Part shown: piece by piece, positions 38,652-47,345 of the stretch
How the letters are laid out: each line of letters begins with the position of its first letter
How positions within the stretch are numbered: the stretch's first letter is position 1
Assembly: GCA_030168575.1 (NCBI GenBank)
Contig: CP115555.1
Location: forward strand, 682,001 to 746,000
Reading direction: 5' to 3'
From: Methanomassiliicoccales archaeon LGM-RCC1
Lineage (GTDB): Archaea; Thermoplasmatota; Thermoplasmata; Methanomassiliicoccales; Methanomethylophilaceae
Length of the DNA: 64,000 nt
Program-made: the position numbers and the translations under genes
Notes under the pieces: generated by a model
What the model was told of the DNA's origin: nothing
The model's database searches: none
Seen by the model: only the letters and a program-made list of their open reading frames with translations

Positions 38652-39560
38652 TCATTCCATGTGAGTGTTCCCGGGGTCTTCCTTTCTGTTGATAACGATC
38701 AGGGCCAGTAGGATCAATGTTATCCCCGTGGCCGTATCGATCCCGACGCCCTCTCCGTAGATTATCAGCCCTATCACAGTCGCGGCCAAAGGTTCCGCGT
38801 AGGTCAGTACAGATGCTTTCCCCGCTTCGATCTTTGTGAGGGAGTAATTGAACAGCACGAACGGCAGCAGGGTGACGAACAATCCCATGCCGACCACGAT
38901 GAGCAACGCATCCGCTGAATGCATCATCAGATCGAATGCTCCGGGCAGGTCGCAGAACGGGGCCAGCCCCACCCAGCAGATCAATGAGGTGTAGAAAAGA
39001 ACGGTCGATACGCTGTATCCGTCCCTGCTCATGATCTTCGAACCGATAGTGTAGATGCTGAAGCAGAATCCCGACAGCGCTGCCAGGAATATGCCCCAGA
39101 GATCCATCGAACCAGGGTCCGTCAGAACCCCTGTGCACAGGACGCTCCCTATGAAGGCGCCGATCACGGCCAGCACCTTGTTCCTGGTCAGCTTCTCCTT
39201 GAGCACGGGGACCGATATCAGAATTACGAAGAAGGGAGCGACGTACTGTAGGACCGATGACAGCGAGAGCGATATCAGGGTCATAGATTCGAGATAGGTG
39301 TAGGAGTTCAGGATAGTACCGATCAGACCCATCATCAGTAGGACGCCCACTGTCTTCCTGTCGACCCTGAACATCTTCATGTTTCTGACCATGATGTACG
39401 CCCAGACGATTACGAAGATCATCATGTAGCGCAGGCAGGTGAGCTGCATCGGAGATATGCCCAGATCGTCCGAGGTGCGAACGAACAATCCGAGGAGACC
39501 CCATATTATACCCGCGGATAATGCGGCAATGATACCGAGATGCTCGGAGTATGAGGTCAT
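38652..39560 (-). CDS. EamA/DMT-family transporter
   Basis: 302 aa with ten predicted transmembrane helices arranged as two five-helix EamA repeats; each begins with a G-rich helix (SAGIIWGLLGLFVRTS; AALSGFCFSIYTIGSKI). The first repeat ends in VPVLKEKLTRNK, the second in EPLAATVIGLIIYGEGV, both family landmarks. It exports or imports an unknown metabolite. It lies 36 nt downstream of the HemK-like methylase gene on the same strand. Confidence 0.9.
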   Translation of the reverse strand: MTSYSEHLGIIAALSAGIIWGLLGLFVRTSDDLGISPMQLTCLRYMMIFVIVWAYIMVRNMKMFRVDRKTVGVLLMMGLIGTILNSYTYLESMTLISLSLSSVLQYVAPFFVILISVPVLKEKLTRNKVLAVIGAFIGSVLCTGVLTDPGSMDLWGIFLAALSGFCFSIYTIGSKIMSRDGYSVSTVLFYTSLICWVGLAPFCDLPGAFDLMMHSADALLIVVGMGLFVTLLPFVLFNYSLTKIEAGKASVLTYAEPLAATVIGLIIYGEGVGIDTATGITLILLALIVINRKEDPGNTHME

Positions 39561-39596
39561 GAACTGTCCATTCTGAGCAATCTATATGGTTGTTAC

Positions 39597-40172
39597 TCAC
39601 TGTGCCTTAGGCCTGATTTCCAGGACCGCTAGCTTCTCGAAGAACAGCTTGAGCTCCCCGATGCTCTCTACATCGTAATCGTCCAGAAGATCCCAGAGCG
39701 CCTGTGTGTCCATCAGCGACGAGATGACCACGACTATCCTGCCCTCCGGATTCAGATGGTCAGAAGATCCGTCGAGGAGGTCCGGAAAAGGTCCGAGGCC
39801 GTCGGGTCCTCCGGACCATGATCTGGCCAGCAGTCCGTCCTCGTCCACAGGGAGATAGGGCAGATTGAACAGGATCGTGTCGAACCTTCCTTCGATGTTA
39901 GAATAGACGTCCGTCTCCACCACGGTGATATGCACCCCATTCTCTCCGGCGTTCCTCTTGGTGAGCTTCACGGCCTTGGGGTTGATGTCCCCGGAGGTTA
40001 CGATGCATCCGTTCTTCGCACAATGGATGGAGACGACGCCGGAACCGCAACCGATCTCCAGCACCTTTTCACCCTTCCTAACGTTCAGCGATTGGATGAA
40101 CAGGATGCTGTCGTCCGACGGGGGATAGACATCTGGGTTGGATAATATGTGGATCTCGGGATCGTAGTCCAT
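39597..40172 (-). CDS. HemK-like N5-glutamine methyltransferase
   Basis: 191 aa class I SAM methyltransferase. Motif I is VLEIGCGSGVVSIHCAK (~36-52), the acidic motif-II equivalent is 'VTSGDINPKAV', and the active-site loop is FNLPYLP (~105-111), where HemK/PrmC/Mtq2 enzymes have N-P-P-Y. It is short and lacks the N-terminal substrate domain of bacterial PrmC, like archaeal Mtq2, which modifies release factor aRF1. TATA-like GCATATTGTATCC about 25 bp before ATG 40172 suggests a leaderless mRNA. Confidence 0.82.
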   Translation of the reverse strand: MDYDPEIHILSNPDVYPPSDDSILFIQSLNVRKGEKVLEIGCGSGVVSIHCAKNGCIVTSGDINPKAVKLTKRNAGENGVHITVVETDVYSNIEGRFDTILFNLPYLPVDEDGLLARSWSGGPDGLGPFPDLLDGSSDHLNPEGRIVVVISSLMDTQALWDLLDDYDVESIGELKLFFEKLAVLEIRPKAQ

Positions 40173-40257
40173 GCTGCTGTATCGGCAGGATACAATATGC
40201 TACTTTCCAGTGCCTAGGACTGTTAATGCAGGAGGAACGGACGGTGGGGATTGTGTT

Positions 40258-40530
40258 TCAGAGCTTGGAGAACTGCCTGACGACCTCTGCGAACTCCTTT
40301 ATGGTCTTGTCCGCATCGCCGTGCTCTATGCCGTCCCTGACGCAGTGGTTGATGTGTCCCTCGAGGACGATCTGGCCCACGCTGTGTATGGCGCTCTTGA
40401 TAGCATTGATCTGAATCATGATCTCCTCGCAGGGGACGTCCTCGTCGATCATGCGGTCGACCGCGGCAACCTGTCCGGCGATTTTCTTCAGACGCTTGTG
40501 GAGGTTCTCAGAGTCCATGCAGTCTATCAT
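40258..40530 (-). CDS. csoR: CsoR-type metal-sensing repressor
   Basis: 90 aa all-helical protein of the CsoR/RcnR/FrmR family. Cys34, His59 and Cys63 have the same spacing (25 and 4) as the Cu(I) ligands of CsoR, which favours copper over nickel or formaldehyde sensing. It binds DNA until metal loads it. It follows a small HMA-domain gene by 37 nt on the same strand, so the pair is probably a copper-responsive unit. An internal Met at residue 5 is an alternative start. Confidence 0.87.
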   Translation of the reverse strand: MIDCMDSENLHKRLKKIAGQVAAVDRMIDEDVPCEEIMIQINAIKSAIHSVGQIVLEGHINHCVRDGIEHGDADKTIKEFAEVVRQFSKL

Positions 40531-40567
40531 GATGGGTGGAAAGGGATCGTCTGATAAATCTTATCTC

Positions 40568-40783
40568 TTATTGGATGCGTTTGGCCACAACATCCCCCTG
40601 TGCCTTAGGTGCCGAGGTGAGGACTTCGTTGGCGATCTCCTCTGCCCTGTCCTCGTCGCAGTCGATGATGAACCTTCCGTTGACCATGAGTGCGGCACCG
40701 TTGACTCCAGGCATCTTCTGGATGTGGGCCTCGAGCTTGTCGGCGCATTCCTGGCAGGTGAGTCCGGTTACGAAGAAAAGCAT
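40568..40783 (-). CDS. small heavy-metal-associated (HMA) domain protein
   Basis: 71 aa from ATG 40783 (MLFFVTGLTCQEC); ATG 40789 is possible. The ferredoxin-like HMA fold is visible, with metal motif GLTCQECADKLEAHIQKMPGVNGAALMVNGRFII (C-x2-C, where the classical chaperone has M-x-C-x2-C). It binds Cu(I) or Zn(II). It is the first gene of a two-gene unit with csoR. A longer frame to 41110 overlaps the divergent gene and is not used. Confidence 0.8.
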   Translation of the reverse strand: MLFFVTGLTCQECADKLEAHIQKMPGVNGAALMVNGRFIIDCDEDRAEEIANEVLTSAPKAQGDVVAKRIQ

Positions 40784-40883
40784 CCTCATGAGGATGGGAA
40801 CGCATCGGTCGTATTTGATTCCGTTTGAACATGGAGGCTGAACCAAACCATGTGTTATATTCGGCGTTGATCTATACAATACC

Positions 40884-41216
40884 ATGATGTTCGGTGACAA
40901 GATCAGGACGATCGTGAACAGGGTCACGAAGGAGTACGAGCCGGAAGCGATCATTGTCTTCGGTTCCGTGGCCAGGGGCGAAGCCACCGAGGAAAGCGAT
41001 CTGGGCATCGCTATCATTATGGATTCCGACCTGTCGGAGCACGAACGCAACGTGAGGATGCGCGTATGTATAGGTCCGATCGGTATGGCCGCGGATCTGC
41101 TGGTCTTCACTCCCTAAGAGGTCTACATCGGCGACCGATTCTGCATCGATAATATCCGAGATAATGAGGACGGGAAAGGTAGTCCATGGATCCGCTTGAA
41201 TCTGCGGTATCCCTGA
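40884..41216 (+). pseudogene. decayed MNT-type nucleotidyltransferase
   Basis: ATG 40884 opens a Pol-beta-like nucleotidyltransferase: IIVFGSVARGEATEESDLGIAIIM (~24-47). The second metal-binding Asp of G-S...S-D-x-D is Gly (SDLGIAI). After 77 residues the family motif 'VFTP-E-E-V' is cut by TAA (41115-41117), and the same frame carries on plausibly (EVYIGDRFCIDNIR...) to TGA at 41214. MNT proteins normally pair with a HEPN toxin; none is present, only a 29-codon frame after 41186. The TATA box TGTTATATT about 25 bp upstream is intact. Confidence 0.65.
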
Positions 41217-41312
41217 ACACGTCTACCGTTGATATCTCTGAACTACAGAGAATCAGATTTCAGAACAAAAGATGAGGGGAAGATTCCCTCGGATAAATTG
41301 AGATCGAGTCTT

Positions 41313-41897
41313 TTAACAACAGCCGCACAGGTACAGAATGAATAACATGACCGCTGCGCCACCGTACAGGAGCCCCAATAGGCAGACGACGTAGCATCCT
41401 AATTTGAATACCCCTACGAACAGAAAGTAGAAGACAGCGACGATACCGCATAACAGGCCTTCAAGCAATGAAACATCCGTATCAGGATTGCTGACCGACG
41501 ATGTTCCGTATCCGAAACCGGCGGAGGGGAGGGTGCTGACCGAAGGAGAAACTTCACAACTGCTGTCATAACAGCTGCTGTAATCATCATAGTATGACAA
41601 AGGGATGCTGGAATCCGAACTGCTGGAATCGGAACCGCCGGACGGAGTTTCCTCGTCCCCGAACAGCTCCTTTAGACATCTCCAATCATCAGTGGTCCCT
41701 ATCTTCTGGGAGCCACTTCCATGGATCGTTCCGTCAGGATCTATGTTACCTAAGATTCCATGCTGTGAGCTTATGATCTAACCGTTAGGATAGATTGTGG
41801 CGATGTTATCGTAACCGCGGTAGATCTCCTTTGATCCGAACCACGAATCAACTATATCCACGATTTCGCCGTTATCACATCTCTATACTTCTGTCAT
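41313..41897 (-). CDS. Ser/Cys-rich membrane protein frame with two in-frame TAG codons
   Basis: The frame from ATG 41897 (MTEV) is open except for TAG at 41883-41885 and 41778-41780. Between and after them it reads like protein: CDNGEIVDIVDSWFGSKEIY, then YDNIATIYPNG-TAG-IISSQHGILGNIDPDG, a Ser-rich linker, Cys-rich SCYDSSCE, and two C-terminal membrane helices (LLCGIVAVFYFLFVGVFKLGCYVVCLLGLLYGG...). AAGGG precedes the ATG by 8 nt. A conservative annotation would keep only TTG 41600-41313 (95 aa). If TAG is read as pyrrolysine the product is 194 aa; otherwise it is a decayed gene. No known family. Confidence 0.5.
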
Positions 41898-42035
41898 ATC
41901 TGTAACCCTTGTTGACCTTGTGAAGGGTATTGGTAAAGGGTTTGACGAGCAGTCCAGAGAGCCTCCGACATGAAAGAATCGGTGGCTGACATTCATGCTC
42001 TCGATTCAACACCGATCGGTTCGTGGGTCTGTACC

Positions 42036-42185
42036 TCATGGATAGATCTTGGTCCCGCACCTGTCGCAGCTGTATTCGGTGTTGCTTGCTGTTCCGTTGA
42101 GGCCCAGGTCGAGGGTCTCGACCATCTCCATGACGCCTACTTCGCCTTTCTCCTTGCAAATAGGACAGATCTTACAATCTGACAT
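42036..42185 (-). CDS. 49-aa zinc-ribbon protein
   Basis: ATG 42185 has a good ribosome-binding site (AGGAGTG, spacing ~8). The product starts MSDCKICPICKEKGEV and ends YSCDRCGTKIYP: two C-x2-C knuckles about 30 residues apart, the signature of a rubredoxin-type zinc ribbon. It may bind nucleic acid or protein. The membrane-protein frame with TAGs follows 138 nt downstream, so they may form a unit. A TATA-like ACTTATATACC lies about 90 bp upstream. Confidence 0.65.
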   Translation of the reverse strand: MSDCKICPICKEKGEVGVMEMVETLDLGLNGTASNTEYSCDRCGTKIYP

Positions 42186-42264
42186 TTCTAGACACTCCTT
42201 TTGTTTTTACAAGTCGCAGGTCGGAAGACTCCGGCCCACCGTACTTGTTGATTATAGATAGTAT

Positions 42265-42302
42265 AGTTGGTATATAAGTTTTTAGATATTTGTACTAACT
42301 AA
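42265..42302. promoter_or_regulatory. inverted repeat TAGTTGGTA...TACTAACTA
   Basis: TAGTTGGTA (42265-42273) and TACTAACTA (42294-42302) form an inverted repeat with one mismatch around the TATA-like sequence TATATAAG, upstream of the zinc-ribbon gene. The same half-sites occur before the TraG-like gene at 43118-43141. Confidence 0.4.
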
Positions 42303-42390
42303 ATTACAGAATATGACGGCGATGTGAATTTTGAATAAAGATGAAGAGAAGATCCTGAAAGAAGACATCAACCGTCTGGATGACGGACGA

Positions 42391-43032
42391 TCATTGAGAT
42401 TTGGTCTCGGATAACCCGGGGTTTGAGACAGGGTCGGGATCAGGTATTGCGTTTTGTCTGAGCTTCTCGACCTCTTTGAGAGCGCTCAACAGGGCAGCGT
42501 TGATGAGGTCCAGATCCGGAACCTCTTCGTCCATGATGGAGTTGATGGTATCTATGCGCTTCTTGAGGGTCAGGTAAGCTGGATCCAACATGATTTGGAT
42601 CTGTTTGTAGAACTGGTCAGAGTCTCTGGCATCCGAGGAAGCGGTTATTTCGTCAGCGCGTCCGCTTTCCGCATGTCTGTTTGACATGCGGGATCTGGGT
42701 GCCTTATATCCGAGCGTTATCGTGCTGCCATTGGGCATTCTGCGTCTTCTGAGGGGGACTGGTATCTCCGGATTGGACATGAGCCGGATCTTATCTATGC
42801 CTTTATCGGTCAAACCGAGATATTGAGTATTGTGGGCCCCTACCCTGGTGACTTCCACGTATCCTTCGGAGATGAGATCCTTGAGCAGGGCGATCTTGGT
42901 CTGTCTAGAGTATCTGATAACGCCGTAAAGATCCTCTTTCTTGACCTCCACTCCGTTGTTGCTCTGTTCCGCCAGATAGCAAAGGGCCTTGTAGACCTCC
43001 TCCTCGCGTGTCTTCCAGGATGAACCTGCCAT
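42391..43032 (-). CDS. winged-helix DNA-binding protein
   Basis: 213 aa. The N-terminal ~85 residues form a winged helix: EEEVYKALCYLAEQS, DLYGVIRYSRQTKIALLKDLISEGYV (recognition helix) and VTRVGAHNTQYLGLTDKG (wing). A basic linker RRRRMPNG follows, and the C-terminal half is helical (LTLKKRIDTINSIMDEEVPDLDLINAALLSALKEVEKLRQ), probably for dimerisation. It sits between two sites that share TAGTTGGT/TACTAACT half-sites, so it is a candidate regulator of the accessory block. Confidence 0.75.
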   Translation of the reverse strand: MAGSSWKTREEEVYKALCYLAEQSNNGVEVKKEDLYGVIRYSRQTKIALLKDLISEGYVEVTRVGAHNTQYLGLTDKGIDKIRLMSNPEIPVPLRRRRMPNGSTITLGYKAPRSRMSNRHAESGRADEITASSDARDSDQFYKQIQIMLDPAYLTLKKRIDTINSIMDEEVPDLDLINAALLSALKEVEKLRQNAIPDPDPVSNPGLSETKSQ

Positions 43033-43117
43033 GGAAGTATCATGAATGTAGAGGTATAATTAATTTGTAGTTGTATGATTTATCTGTCTAGATGTATGAT
43101 TTTATAGATATATTTAT

Positions 43118-43141
43118 TAGTTGGTTCTACTAATACTAACT
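43118..43141. promoter_or_regulatory. inverted repeat TAGTTGGT-N8-TACTAACT
   Basis: TAGTTGGT (43118-43125) and TACTAACT (43134-43141) lie 6 bp before ATG 43148, where a bound protein would cover the start. It shares half-sites with 42265-42302, 0.85 kb away. Confidence 0.4.
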
Positions 43142-43147
43142 GATAAC

Positions 43148-44767
43148 ATGACGACGGTAAAGGACAGGATCAGGGGGAACGCGGAAACAGATGATTACTA
43201 CATAATCGATGATGATGGGATCAGGATCCCCGATCATACAAGATTAGAAGGGACCAACGAATTCCTAAGGCGGTGCCAACCGGTGGATGTGGCCGACGTC
43301 GAAGACAGAACATACGGTACACCCGTGGCCAGCAGAGATGGGACGGTGTATGTGGATACTGAACCGTGTCATTGTCTCATAATAGGGGGATCAGGCACCG
43401 GGAAGACGCTGTCGTTCACACTTATCAAGGCCATACAGGCACTGAAGGCCGGTCATTCTGTGGTATATCAGGCTTCGAGAAGGAACAATCTGAAGGTCCT
43501 TCAGGACACCGCCAAGCAATTGGGGATCGAGCCTGTCATTATCGATCTGGAGAATCCCCAGTACTCAGACCCCTTCCCGATCCTATTCCCTGTCAGTAAG
43601 AATATCAGGAGTGAGGACCCTTGGGATAGGATCAGGGGCATGAATATGGCCTCGTCGATCGTCAACAGCGCACTTCTGTTCAATAGCACACAGAATGCAG
43701 AATGGCTGATGGGCACCACCAATTTCACGGAAGGAGCATTGGAATTTGTAACGAGGGAGATAGATGGACCGGAGATGAACACCAGGAGTATACTGAAAGT
43801 CGTCGAAACGGTTCTGGATCCGGAAGACAGCCCATTGAAAAGAACCATAGAGGATGATGATCACTACAAAGCGAAATTCGGACCCATCCTATTGCAGAGT
43901 GCCATGACAACGCTCGAAGGATACAAATCGGTGTTCCATTCCACCTTTGTGTTAACCCTCTGCAGCCCTAGGTTCGCACCGGTTTTGAATGGTTCGCGGA
44001 CCGAGATCTTCTCTATGGATCAGAAGCAACAGCTGCTGATCCTGATCAGTCCCGAAGGGGACCCGATAGCTGCGTCGATCACAAAGATGATCCTTTCGAT
44101 TCTGCATGACGTCATCGTAGACAATGTAGGATCATACGGAGGTACATCGGAGCTCCCTGTGGACTTCATCCTGGATGAGTTCGGATTTCTCGGATTTGAA
44201 GCAGCTCGGCAATGGGTCTCTCAGGACAGGGAACGCGGATTCTACCACACCCACGGATGCCAGAGCCTCAGACAGATCACCGCAGATGACGATTCCATCT
44301 TGGACAACTACAAGATTTTGATCTTCACCGGGAGCTCGAACATCTCAACACTCAATGAATTCCAGTCTATGCTGGTGGTAAACCGGATCCCATTGATATC
44401 AGCTGACCAGCTCAGGAAGATGCAAGTGGGGGAAGCGGTCATCATTACAAGAGGCAGGAACCCATACTATGCAAGGATGATGAACCTCAGAGATATGGTG
44501 GACTCCGGGCCTCTAGAAGGAAAAAAGAGGGAATATGTGGACCTGCCCACGATCGACAAAGATTTCGTCCCTAAGAGTAAAAAGAGCAAGAAGGTGATCT
44601 TCGATCTCAACTATAGCGAGTACCTAAGACTCACCAACAATGTGAAAGAACCTGAGGACGCCTCTAACGAGAATAAGAAGAAAGCTGTAAAGAAAGAAGT
44701 CGAGGATGATCAGGAGAGAAGGATCAAGCATGACGAAGAGGTCATTTCCTTGCTTCACGGGGTCTAG
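43148..44767 (+). CDS. VirD4/TraG-like conjugation coupling ATPase, ends at TAG
   Basis: 539 aa from ATG 43148 (MTTVKDRIRG); TTG 43121 is unlikely. Walker A is IIGGSGTGKTLSFTL (~80-94) and Walker B VDFILDEFGFLG (~337-348). The VirD4/TraG hallmarks 'QASRRNNLKVLQDTAKQLG' and 'HTHGCQSLRQI' (the Gln of motif III) are present. No N-terminal membrane helices are seen, so it is a soluble form. VirD4 ATPases feed DNA or proteins into type IV secretion. The stop is TAG (44765-44767), and the same frame continues into the next ORF. No relaxase or other Tra genes are in the window. Confidence 0.85.
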   Translation: MTTVKDRIRGNAETDDYYIIDDDGIRIPDHTRLEGTNEFLRRCQPVDVADVEDRTYGTPVASRDGTVYVDTEPCHCLIIGGSGTGKTLSFTLIKAIQALKAGHSVVYQASRRNNLKVLQDTAKQLGIEPVIIDLENPQYSDPFPILFPVSKNIRSEDPWDRIRGMNMASSIVNSALLFNSTQNAEWLMGTTNFTEGALEFVTREIDGPEMNTRSILKVVETVLDPEDSPLKRTIEDDDHYKAKFGPILLQSAMTTLEGYKSVFHSTFVLTLCSPRFAPVLNGSRTEIFSMDQKQQLLILISPEGDPIAASITKMILSILHDVIVDNVGSYGGTSELPVDFILDEFGFLGFEAARQWVSQDRERGFYHTHGCQSLRQITADDDSILDNYKILIFTGSSNISTLNEFQSMLVVNRIPLISADQLRKMQVGEAVIITRGRNPYYARMMNLRDMVDSGPLEGKKREYVDLPTIDKDFVPKSKKSKKVIFDLNYSEYLRLTNNVKEPEDASNENKKKAVKKEVEDDQERRIKHDEEVISLLHGV

Positions 44768-44812
44768 GCGTGGTTTGACCGGGATTTCTCGGATGAGGAC
44801 CTTCTCGGATAT

Positions 44813-45229
44813 ATGGCGATGAAGACCAACGCAGAACTCATGAAGCTGATTAGGGAGGAAGGGTTCACCATAAAACGCAGGAAGGCAGATCCGACCCTCA
44901 CCGACGCGCTATATGAGTGGTTGGCCGTAAAGGGGTACGATGTGAATCCGAATATGGGAGCGACAATAATCAACATGGCCATCGAGGGTGAGCAATTTGA
45001 CTTCATGTGCGTCTCATCCAAAGCATACAGGGTGCCGGCATTCCACGGAAGGCCTTTGAACATCGGGAAGCATTACATACTCACGACGGAGAAGTTCGCC
45101 TATGCTGAAGTGGCCTTATCCATCATTGTGCATGCGGTCCGCTGCATCCATGGGATGGAAGAAGGGGATTTTCTGAAAGACGGCGATCTCTGGGAGGGGA
45201 GGTTCGAGCCTCTGAGGAAAGTGATTTGA
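44813..45229 (+). CDS. unknown protein or C-terminal extension of the TraG-like ATPase
   Basis: 138 aa from ATG 44813 (MAMKTNAELMKLIREEGFTIKRRKA), in the same frame as the TraG-like gene and separated from its TAG by 15 codons (AWFDRDFSDEDLLGY) without a stop. The segment LIREEGFTIKRRKADPTLTDALYEWLAVKGYDVN looks like a small DNA-binding or effector domain, but no family is recognised. GAGGA lies 10-11 nt before the ATG, so independent translation is possible. If TAG is read through, the fusion would be 693 residues. Confidence 0.6.
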   Translation: MAMKTNAELMKLIREEGFTIKRRKADPTLTDALYEWLAVKGYDVNPNMGATIINMAIEGEQFDFMCVSSKAYRVPAFHGRPLNIGKHYILTTEKFAYAEVALSIIVHAVRCIHGMEEGDFLKDGDLWEGRFEPLRKVI

Positions 45230-45331
45230 TCTCAAGTATGGGAAAGTGTTGGATCGGGAGCGGAAAAACGATCGCAACAGCACTGAGCATCCGGGAACAT
45301 GTATCTTATATCGGTACCGAGACTTCGAAGC

Positions 45332-45363
45332 ATGTTCCGTTCGGATGATGTTCCGAGCGGATG
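45332..45363. repeat. two 16-nt tandem repeats
   Basis: ATGTTCCGTTCGGATG (45332-45347) and ATGTTCCGAGCGGATG (45348-45363) differ at two positions. They lie in the 190-nt gap upstream of the MBL hydrolase gene and may be regulator-binding sites. The rest of the gap shows nothing clear. Confidence 0.4.
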
Positions 45364-45420
45364 GTCCGATAAGCATGCAAAGTCCGAAGCATCATCGCTA
45401 AATCCTCGTACCAGATATCA

Positions 45421-46005
45421 ATGGACATGATCCAACTGGACATCCTGGCCGTCGGCTACCTGGAGAGGGACGAGGACGGGAACATACTCAAGGCAGATTC
45501 CACCAGCGTGCTGGTCCGCACGCCTAAGCACACCATAGTGGTGGATCCCAGCACGAAGTACATGAAGCCGTTCCTCAAGACGTCCTTCCAGCAGATCGGG
45601 GTGTTCGTCAGGGATGTGGATATCGTGGTGCTCACGCATACACATGAAGATCACATCGAGAACCTGGACATGTTCCCGAAAGCGAAGGTCTACGTGCACA
45701 GCGGTGCCGAGAAGGAGATCCCGGGAGCCATCATCGTGGACAAGGACGAGTACGATCTCTGTGAAGGTGTGAAGCTGGTCTACACTCCTGGGCACTGCCC
45801 GGAGGAGATCTCCGTGTTCGTCGACGCGGACAGACATTATGTCATAGCCGGCGACACGATCCCTCTGGAGGATAACTTCTTCAAGAACATCCCTCCCCGT
45901 CTGAATACTGACCCCGAGCTCGCACTGCAAAGTATTAAGAAGATAAGGGACTACGCAGACGTAATCATACCGGGACATGGATTCCCGTTCATGACGGAAC
46001 AGTGA
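45421..46005 (+). CDS. MBL-fold metallohydrolase
   Basis: 194 aa metallo-beta-lactamase fold. The metal motif is LTHTHEDHIEN (~71-81, H-x-H-x-D-H), with further ligands in YTPGHCPE (~121-127), AGDTIPL (~143) and PGHG (~187). The substrate could be a thioester, nucleotide or other hydrolysable group; no RNase-type beta-CASP domain is present. ATG 45421 is taken; ATG 45427 is possible. The stop and the next start overlap (TGATG). Confidence 0.85.
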   Translation: MDMIQLDILAVGYLERDEDGNILKADSTSVLVRTPKHTIVVDPSTKYMKPFLKTSFQQIGVFVRDVDIVVLTHTHEDHIENLDMFPKAKVYVHSGAEKEIPGAIIVDKDEYDLCEGVKLVYTPGHCPEEISVFVDADRHYVIAGDTIPLEDNFFKNIPPRLNTDPELALQSIKKIRDYADVIIPGHGFPFMTEQ

Positions 46006-46688
46006 TGCAGATGATCAAGAGAGAGATGCCGGACACGATCTACTTCGATTGCCCCGATTGCGACGAGGAGACCGAGCACCAGATCCTGAAAGGAAGGATG
46101 GGCAAGGCCTCGATAGAGGGTACCTTCAGGTGCACCTCCTGCAACCGCATCTCCTCGATGACAATCAAGATCCCCGAGCTCATCGAGGTGCCCGTCGTCT
46201 TCAGCGACGGGGACGTCTCAGAGACAGTAAGGACCACCATCGAGAGCAATGACATCATCCAGGAGGAGGACGAGTTCTTCCTCGACGACGGAAGGAGGGT
46301 CTGCGTCACCCATGTGGACACCAAGGACGGAAAGTACAGGAAGAAGGTGCTGGCCACAGATGTGAAGAAGCTGTGGGTGAAGCAGTTCGACATCCTGACC
46401 ATCAAGGTCTCCGTCAACGATGACGACCACACTTATTCTCTCAGGGTAGAGGCCGAGCCGGACGACGAGTTCGTTGTCGGTACACAGCTTTCTTTCGAGG
46501 ACTTCGACTGTCTGATCCACGCCATCAAGACCAAGCACAGCCTTGTGAAGAAGGGCGTTGCCGAGGCCAGGGACATCACCAGGATCTACGGCAAGATCAG
46601 GAAGAAGAGGTACGAGGTCCTTGATTTCGAGGACGATGACGAGGACTTCGACGAGGACGACTACATCATCGACGATGATGACGAATGA
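46005..46688 (+). CDS. HVO_0476-like zinc-finger protein
   Basis: 227 aa. The N-terminal zinc ribbon is YFDCPDCDEETEHQILKG...FRCTSCNRISSM (two C-x2-C), followed by an all-beta middle region and a very acidic C-terminus (DFEDDDEDFDEDDYIIDDDDE). This matches the archaeal COG1326 group, whose function is unknown. It overlaps the hydrolase stop by one base (TGATG) and converges on the HAD phosphatase gene, with no gap. Confidence 0.82.
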   Translation: MQMIKREMPDTIYFDCPDCDEETEHQILKGRMGKASIEGTFRCTSCNRISSMTIKIPELIEVPVVFSDGDVSETVRTTIESNDIIQEEDEFFLDDGRRVCVTHVDTKDGKYRKKVLATDVKKLWVKQFDILTIKVSVNDDDHTYSLRVEAEPDDEFVVGTQLSFEDFDCLIHAIKTKHSLVKKGVAEARDITRIYGKIRKKRYEVLDFEDDDEDFDEDDYIIDDDDE

Positions 46689-47345
46689 TCATTCCTCTTC
46701 TTCGAGGATGTAATCGAGAACGTCAGCGATGTTATCGGAGACCACTGTGTAGGTGGCCGCATCGCTGGTGTAAGGGTCCGTCGGATTGAATGCGATGGAC
46801 ATGCCCGAGTTCTTGAACATGGGGATGTCAGTGAACGAGTTGCCGATGGAGACCGTCCTCTCGGGAGTGGTCCTGTACTTCTCGATGAAATGGCGCACGT
46901 TGATGCCCTTGTCCTTCAGGTCCACGATGAGCTTGCCTTCTCCGGTCAGTGTGCCGTCTGGATTGGTGCAGATCTCGTCCGCGGCGAAGTCGTCGAAGCC
47001 GAACTCGTTCTTGATCAGCAGAGCGGCCTTGTCTATCCCTCCGCTGACTATGACGCATCTCACGCCGTTCTCCTTCAGGCAGGCCACCGTCTCCTGGATG
47101 CCTCCGATGAGGGGCATGTCCTGGAAGAGCTTGGCGATCTCGTCGATGGTGACGTCCGGCTTCTTGTTTGTCCAGAGGGCTATGTCCCTCCTCATGAACT
47201 CCGATTCGTCTATCTCCCCGTTGCAGTAGGCCTGGTACGTGGGTTCGTTGTCCACGTCGAAACATTGATGCACCCAACACCATGAGCTCCTCAGTTTGGT
47301 CAGGACTCCGTCCATGTCGAAGCAGACGAGATCGTACTTGTTCAT
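46689..47345 (-). CDS. HAD-family phosphatase, SerB-like
   Basis: 218 aa. HAD motif I is CFDMDGVL (Asp10, Asp12), motif II IVSGG (~97), and motif IV GNSFTDIPMF (~169). The cap is a helical insert after motif I (WCWVHQCFDVDNEPTYQAYCNGEIDESEFMRRDI), similar to phosphoserine phosphatase. It could make serine from phosphoserine or act on another small phosphate ester. It is oriented against the zinc-protein gene and starts 47 nt from the end of a small membrane-protein gene. Confidence 0.82.
   Translation of the reverse strand: MNKYDLVCFDMDGVLTKLRSSWCWVHQCFDVDNEPTYQAYCNGEIDESEFMRRDIALWTNKKPDVTIDEIAKLFQDMPLIGGIQETVACLKENGVRCVIVSGGIDKAALLIKNEFGFDDFAADEICTNPDGTLTGEGKLIVDLKDKGINVRHFIEKYRTTPERTVSIGNSFTDIPMFKNSGMSIAFNPTDPYTSDAATYTVVSDNIADVLDYILEEEE

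Follow-up and report, generated by a model that had tools for sequence, protein, structure and literature searches.

A candidate pyrrolysine-containing, beta-flower-like membrane protein gene on a strain-specific archaeal island

Is a frame interrupted by TAG codons alone a real gene whose TAGs are read as pyrrolysine (Pyl), or a gene in decay? The question is raised by a minus-strand frame in the window, by which we mean the whole 64-kb stretch of DNA analysed here. The original prediction had described, from the ATG at 41897, a frame of 194 codons holding two TAGs and no TAA or TGA, and our translation confirmed this count up to the terminal TAA. Translated from 41897 to 41310 on the minus strand, the sequence reads MTEV-(TAG)-RCDNGEIVDIVDSWFGSKEIYRGYDNIATIYPNG-(TAG)-IISSQHGILGNIDPDGTIHG...ILYLCGCC-(stop). 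The frame and its two TAGs are placed as follows.

41313..41897, minus strand: TAG-containing coding sequence, 194 codons and a TAA stop (41315-41313), based on translation, codon usage and a structure model
41883..41885, minus strand: TAG1, in frame at codon 5, probably Pyl; alternatively, translation starts after it, at GTG 41861
41778..41780, minus strand: TAG2, in frame at codon 40, probably Pyl, at the polar position of a beta-flower repeat 17 residues long (PNG-O-I)

Among the six frames of the region, this is the only one without TAA or TGA, and it also has the highest codon-usage score of the six at the locus. Under a first-order Markov model of the region, 194 codons free of TAA and TGA have a probability of 0.0025, and the entire 230-codon opening has one of 0.0007. 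Long TAA/TGA-free frames are common in the shadow of genes (236 in 464 kb); unlike these shadow frames, the TAG-interrupted frame overlaps no called gene. Of the stop triplets in non-coding frames here, just ~19% are TAG and ~63% are TGA, which makes it notable that TAG accounts for both interruptions. The segment between TAG1 and TAG2 scores 0.31 bits/codon, which is attained by 2.6% of shadow windows and ranks at the 27th percentile among true coding windows. After TAG2 codon usage is weak (-0.05 bits/codon), with the first 59 codons there at the 7th percentile of coding; this score fits the Ser/Cys-rich, membrane composition of that part and, taken alone, is poor evidence for coding.

A reading of TAG as Pyl requires a genome that can decode it. 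The window lies on a single 1.66-Mb contig. The genome encodes PylS (259.5 bits, above the cut-off), with tRNA-Pyl(CTA) ~160 bases upstream of this match. Codon 202 is TAG in two MtmB genes, which served as positive controls. We sampled 464 kb, made up of the 64-kb window and twenty 20-kb stretches, and found that coding continues in frame after TAG in 12 of 27 coding stretches, compared with 27 of 415 stretches ending in TGA and 1 of 50 ending in TAA (12/27 versus 28/465 for TGA and TAA combined; Fisher P = 1.1e-7). The remaining 15 TAG-ended stretches have no coding sequence after the TAG. This pattern suggests that TAG is often read as sense across the genome and that some TAGs may still terminate; newer papers favour consistent or ambiguous decoding of TAG in such archaea. 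A coding test on 30 codons either side of every stop was dropped, as shadow frames made it noisy. Gene callers that treat TAG as a stop truncate or miss genes in this genome.

Other genes of the genome also contain TAG. A Na/Pi-cotransporter-PhoU protein has TAG at codon 399, inside its PhoU domain (L061:13313-14989; G000:C1:1173313-1174989). This TAG is kept in nine genomes of the genus, its own and eight others at 77-98% identity, and in eleven more distant genomes the site is Lys in eight, Glu in two and Arg in one. The dN/dS ratio is ~0.08-0.2 on both sides of the TAG, with similar dN and dS before and after it (e.g. 0.136/0.971 and 0.101/0.782), and in the same-species pair dN is 0 downstream. 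This is the pattern that translation through the TAG would predict, and the gene, which is unnamed in Table 7 of PMC4153887, makes a stronger case for routine TAG translation in housekeeping-type proteins of these archaea. A 449-codon frame (L053:11551-12900; G000:C1:491551-492900) contains six TAGs and neither TAA nor TGA, and its LMWPc domain match lies solely after the last TAG. An IS110-type transposase frame occurs in two copies (L047:18618-19658 and L066:3086-4126) with TAG at codon 197 in each; the copies are equal in length and score, Pfam having been run on the L047 copy only. In a ThiF-family gene (L063:17884-18507), TAG at codon 112 is spanned by the Pfam domain (residues 4-198).

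What would the frame encode? The best explanation is a small membrane protein in which a Ser/Asp-rich linker joins N-terminal beta-flower-like repeats to two hydrophobic helices at the C-terminus. Two of these parts can be placed on the sequence.

41688..41882, minus strand: beta-flower-like repeat region, residues 6-70, with PF21785 and phrog_18536 matches and strands predicted at low confidence
41319..41477, minus strand: C-terminal hydrophobic helices, residues 141-193, from the AlphaFold2 model

PF21785 (Bflower_2) matches residues 31-71 (E 0.014, 15.7-15.8 bits, below the curated cut-off of 38), and phrog_18536 matches residues 32-70 (E 1.8e-4). The two matches are weak yet concordant, and both span residue 40, the position of TAG2, lying mostly downstream of it. 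The motifs DNGEI, PNG-O-I and PDGTI start at residues 8, 37 and 54, with spacings of 29 and then 17. In a TAG-free relative from another genome (L031 in G022), the motif xDG[T/R][F/V] recurs with a period of 17 residues throughout, and TAG2 falls where the other repeats have T, R or E. AlphaFold2 run on the single sequence predicted short strands that extend, at low confidence (pLDDT ~55), across both TAGs (residues 3-6, 12-17, 23-27, 30-35, 41-43, 48-52 and 58-60), followed by helices at 141-178 and 181-193 in a block with pLDDT 71-94. Foldseek with both models returned nothing at E <= 0.001, as expected given a pLDDT of 55, and a sequence search of the PDB gave nothing convincing. In many beta-flower proteins a hydrophobic helix at the C-terminus is enclosed by the fold, and some seem to associate with membranes (PMC10584680). 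We infer that the product is placed in the membrane; by analogy with these proteins, its function is perhaps lipid- or envelope-associated.

The position of the start codon decides how many TAGs would have to be crossed. The first standard start (ATG, GTG or TTG) past TAG2 is the TTG at 41600 (residue 100), so that, from a standard start, the part of the repeat domain in between can be translated only if TAG2 is crossed. A sole product of 95 residues from this TTG, comprising the linker and the membrane helices with everything upstream untranslated, would make use of that first available start. Such a product would leave the repeat-domain matches at residues 31-71 entirely upstream of its start, and the TAG1-TAG2 segment looks coding. 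Homologues starting near 41600, which the original prediction had named as the finding that would speak against it, were searched for and none was found. We regard this short product as very improbable.

The case is less clear at TAG1. The original prediction had judged the frame protein-like to either side of the interruptions; this holds at TAG2, as judged by domain matches, codon usage and the repeat motif, whereas TAG1 is preceded by only four codons from the ATG. Together with the in-frame GTG available downstream, this shortness would suit a start at GTG 41861 (codon 13) or elsewhere past TAG1, with Pyl at TAG2 only and TAG1 in the leader. No recognisable Shine-Dalgarno sequence precedes the ATG at 41897 in a crude test that was positive for 109 of 207 strong genes, but by the same test the GTG has none either. 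Against the GTG, the first repeat motif, DNGEI at residues 8-12, lies between TAG1 and codon 13, which lends mild support to a start upstream of TAG1, and a strand is predicted, at low confidence, at residues 3-6. A start past TAG1, which is a variant of Pyl reading at both TAGs and overlaps it, seems to us a minority possibility, and TAG1 as Pyl is less certain than TAG2.

The genomic setting bears on whether the gene is decaying. The TAG-interrupted gene is absent from a genome of the same species (G005), as is the whole island on which it sits. In that genome the flanks of the island adjoin each other (39001-40832 at 98.6% and 45385-46888 at 98.9%, by blastn of L007).

40833..45384, no strand: strain-specific island of ~4.55 kb, missing from G005
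40884..41202, plus strand: nucleotidyltransferase pseudogene, with a TAA and a frameshift relative to the intact copy in G009
42036..42185, minus strand: 49-aa CxxC...CxxC zinc-ribbon-like ORF upstream of the TAG-interrupted gene, from direct reading and sub-threshold zinc-ribbon matches
42391..43032, minus strand: winged-helix-like protein, with weak PF22665/HTH matches and a match to the transcriptional regulator phrog_11046 (E 0.0019)
43148..45229, plus strand: ATPase resembling T4SS coupling proteins (PF02534, E 8.9e-8; PF12696)

The ATPase frame reaches a TAG at 44765-44767 and stays open to 45229, giving 693 codons from the ATG at 43148. The part downstream of this TAG has an ATG of its own, and the frame may represent one fused protein or two adjacent in-frame genes. 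It is conceivable, if rather doubtful, that the island represents a mobile element fitted to its host's altered code, with in-frame TAGs in two of its genes, this ATPase and the TAG-interrupted gene. If true, it would be fully expressible only in Pyl-decoding archaea, and its amber codons would form a code-based barrier to spread. The island ORFs examined include no integrase, and the ends of the island show no clear terminal repeats.

Searches for relatives gave the following picture. No full-length relative of the TAG-interrupted gene was found in 147 genomes of the order or in phages, and scans of genome_contigs and viral_contigs yielded relatives neither of this gene nor of the ATPase. Likewise, the HTH protein had no relatives in viral_contigs, and orf138 showed no detectable relationship to the small partner genes beside ATPase homologues. 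The only C-terminal match, in G025, was rejected as an unrelated surface-protein frame without membrane helices, and N-terminal matches in G021 and G016 were too short or too interrupted to be homologues.

Amber decay tolerated through tRNA-Pyl, the other account offered by the original prediction, is the main rival of Pyl reading and the less favoured of the two. The gene would be a remnant in decay, carried by a strain-specific island, its TAGs early nonsense mutations tolerated via tRNA-Pyl suppression, and its product, if any, would no longer matter. Its place on such an island next to a pseudogene, its weak codon usage past TAG2 and the lack of relatives among the 147 genomes of the order that could reveal constraint all agree with this account. 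However, the neighbouring pseudogene is broken by a TAA and a frameshift and its SDLD has become SDLG relative to the intact copy (L098 in G009), whereas the TAG-interrupted gene has neither kind of lesion over 194 codons. Decay is under way in the island, but its appearance differs from this gene's pattern of TAGs alone. Two interruptions that are both TAG would be improbable under unsuppressed nonsense, TAG being about one-fifth of non-coding stop triplets, and coding-like codon usage is kept between TAG1 and TAG2. Taken together, these observations make decay unlikely in our judgement.

We propose instead that TAG2, and probably TAG1, is read through as Pyl in a real beta-flower-like membrane protein, a reading that we consider probable. 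Ribosomes would pass TAG2, and probably TAG1, using tRNA-Pyl charged by PylS, and the product would carry one or two Pyl residues at non-critical positions. The TAGs would probably have arisen from the polar codons AAG, CAG or GAG by a single-base change and would persist because the lineage often reads TAG as sense; we propose no catalytic role for Pyl. We infer that the gene is expressed, with Pyl at its two TAG sites. Of the two accounts in the original prediction, that of two Pyl residues outside the methylamine methyltransferases is thus the one favoured, by PylS, tRNA-Pyl, the frequent use of TAG as sense across the genome, and the repeat domain and missing start codons, which call for TAG2 to be crossed, with TAG1 the less certain part.

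The surprise implied by such residues is smaller than the original prediction suggested, as Pyl outside the methyltransferases has already been predicted in this lineage (PMC4153887, PMC5011839). In the rumen strain ISO4-H5, in-frame amber codons are reported in 46 genes, including those of hypothetical proteins and insertion sequences (PMC5011839); in the sections of that paper considered here, no beta-flower gene is named among them. The likeness to Bflower_2 (PF21785; Durairaj et al. 2023, PMC10584680) lies in the short-strand repeats and G-x-I/F motifs; the gene differs in its TAG codons, in having fewer clear repeats and in its score, 15.7 bits where the cut-off is 38. For 'Candidatus Methanomethylophilus alvus', 16 Pyl proteins are predicted besides the methyltransferases, and TAG accounts for 1.6% of stops (Borrel et al. 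2014, PMC4153887). Its cases were found where both halves of a gene matched one BLASTP hit, which the TAG-interrupted gene does not have, and in Table 7 of that paper there is no similar entry; unlike that set, the gene has two TAGs. Both genomes have in-frame TAG in ordinary genes, they share low usage of TAG as a stop and a complete Pyl system, and they are probably of the same lineage (PMC4153887). The gene described here would be a further instance of behaviour already known in this lineage, with no new mechanism, and it extends the predicted pyrrolysine proteome of gut methanogens by one candidate.
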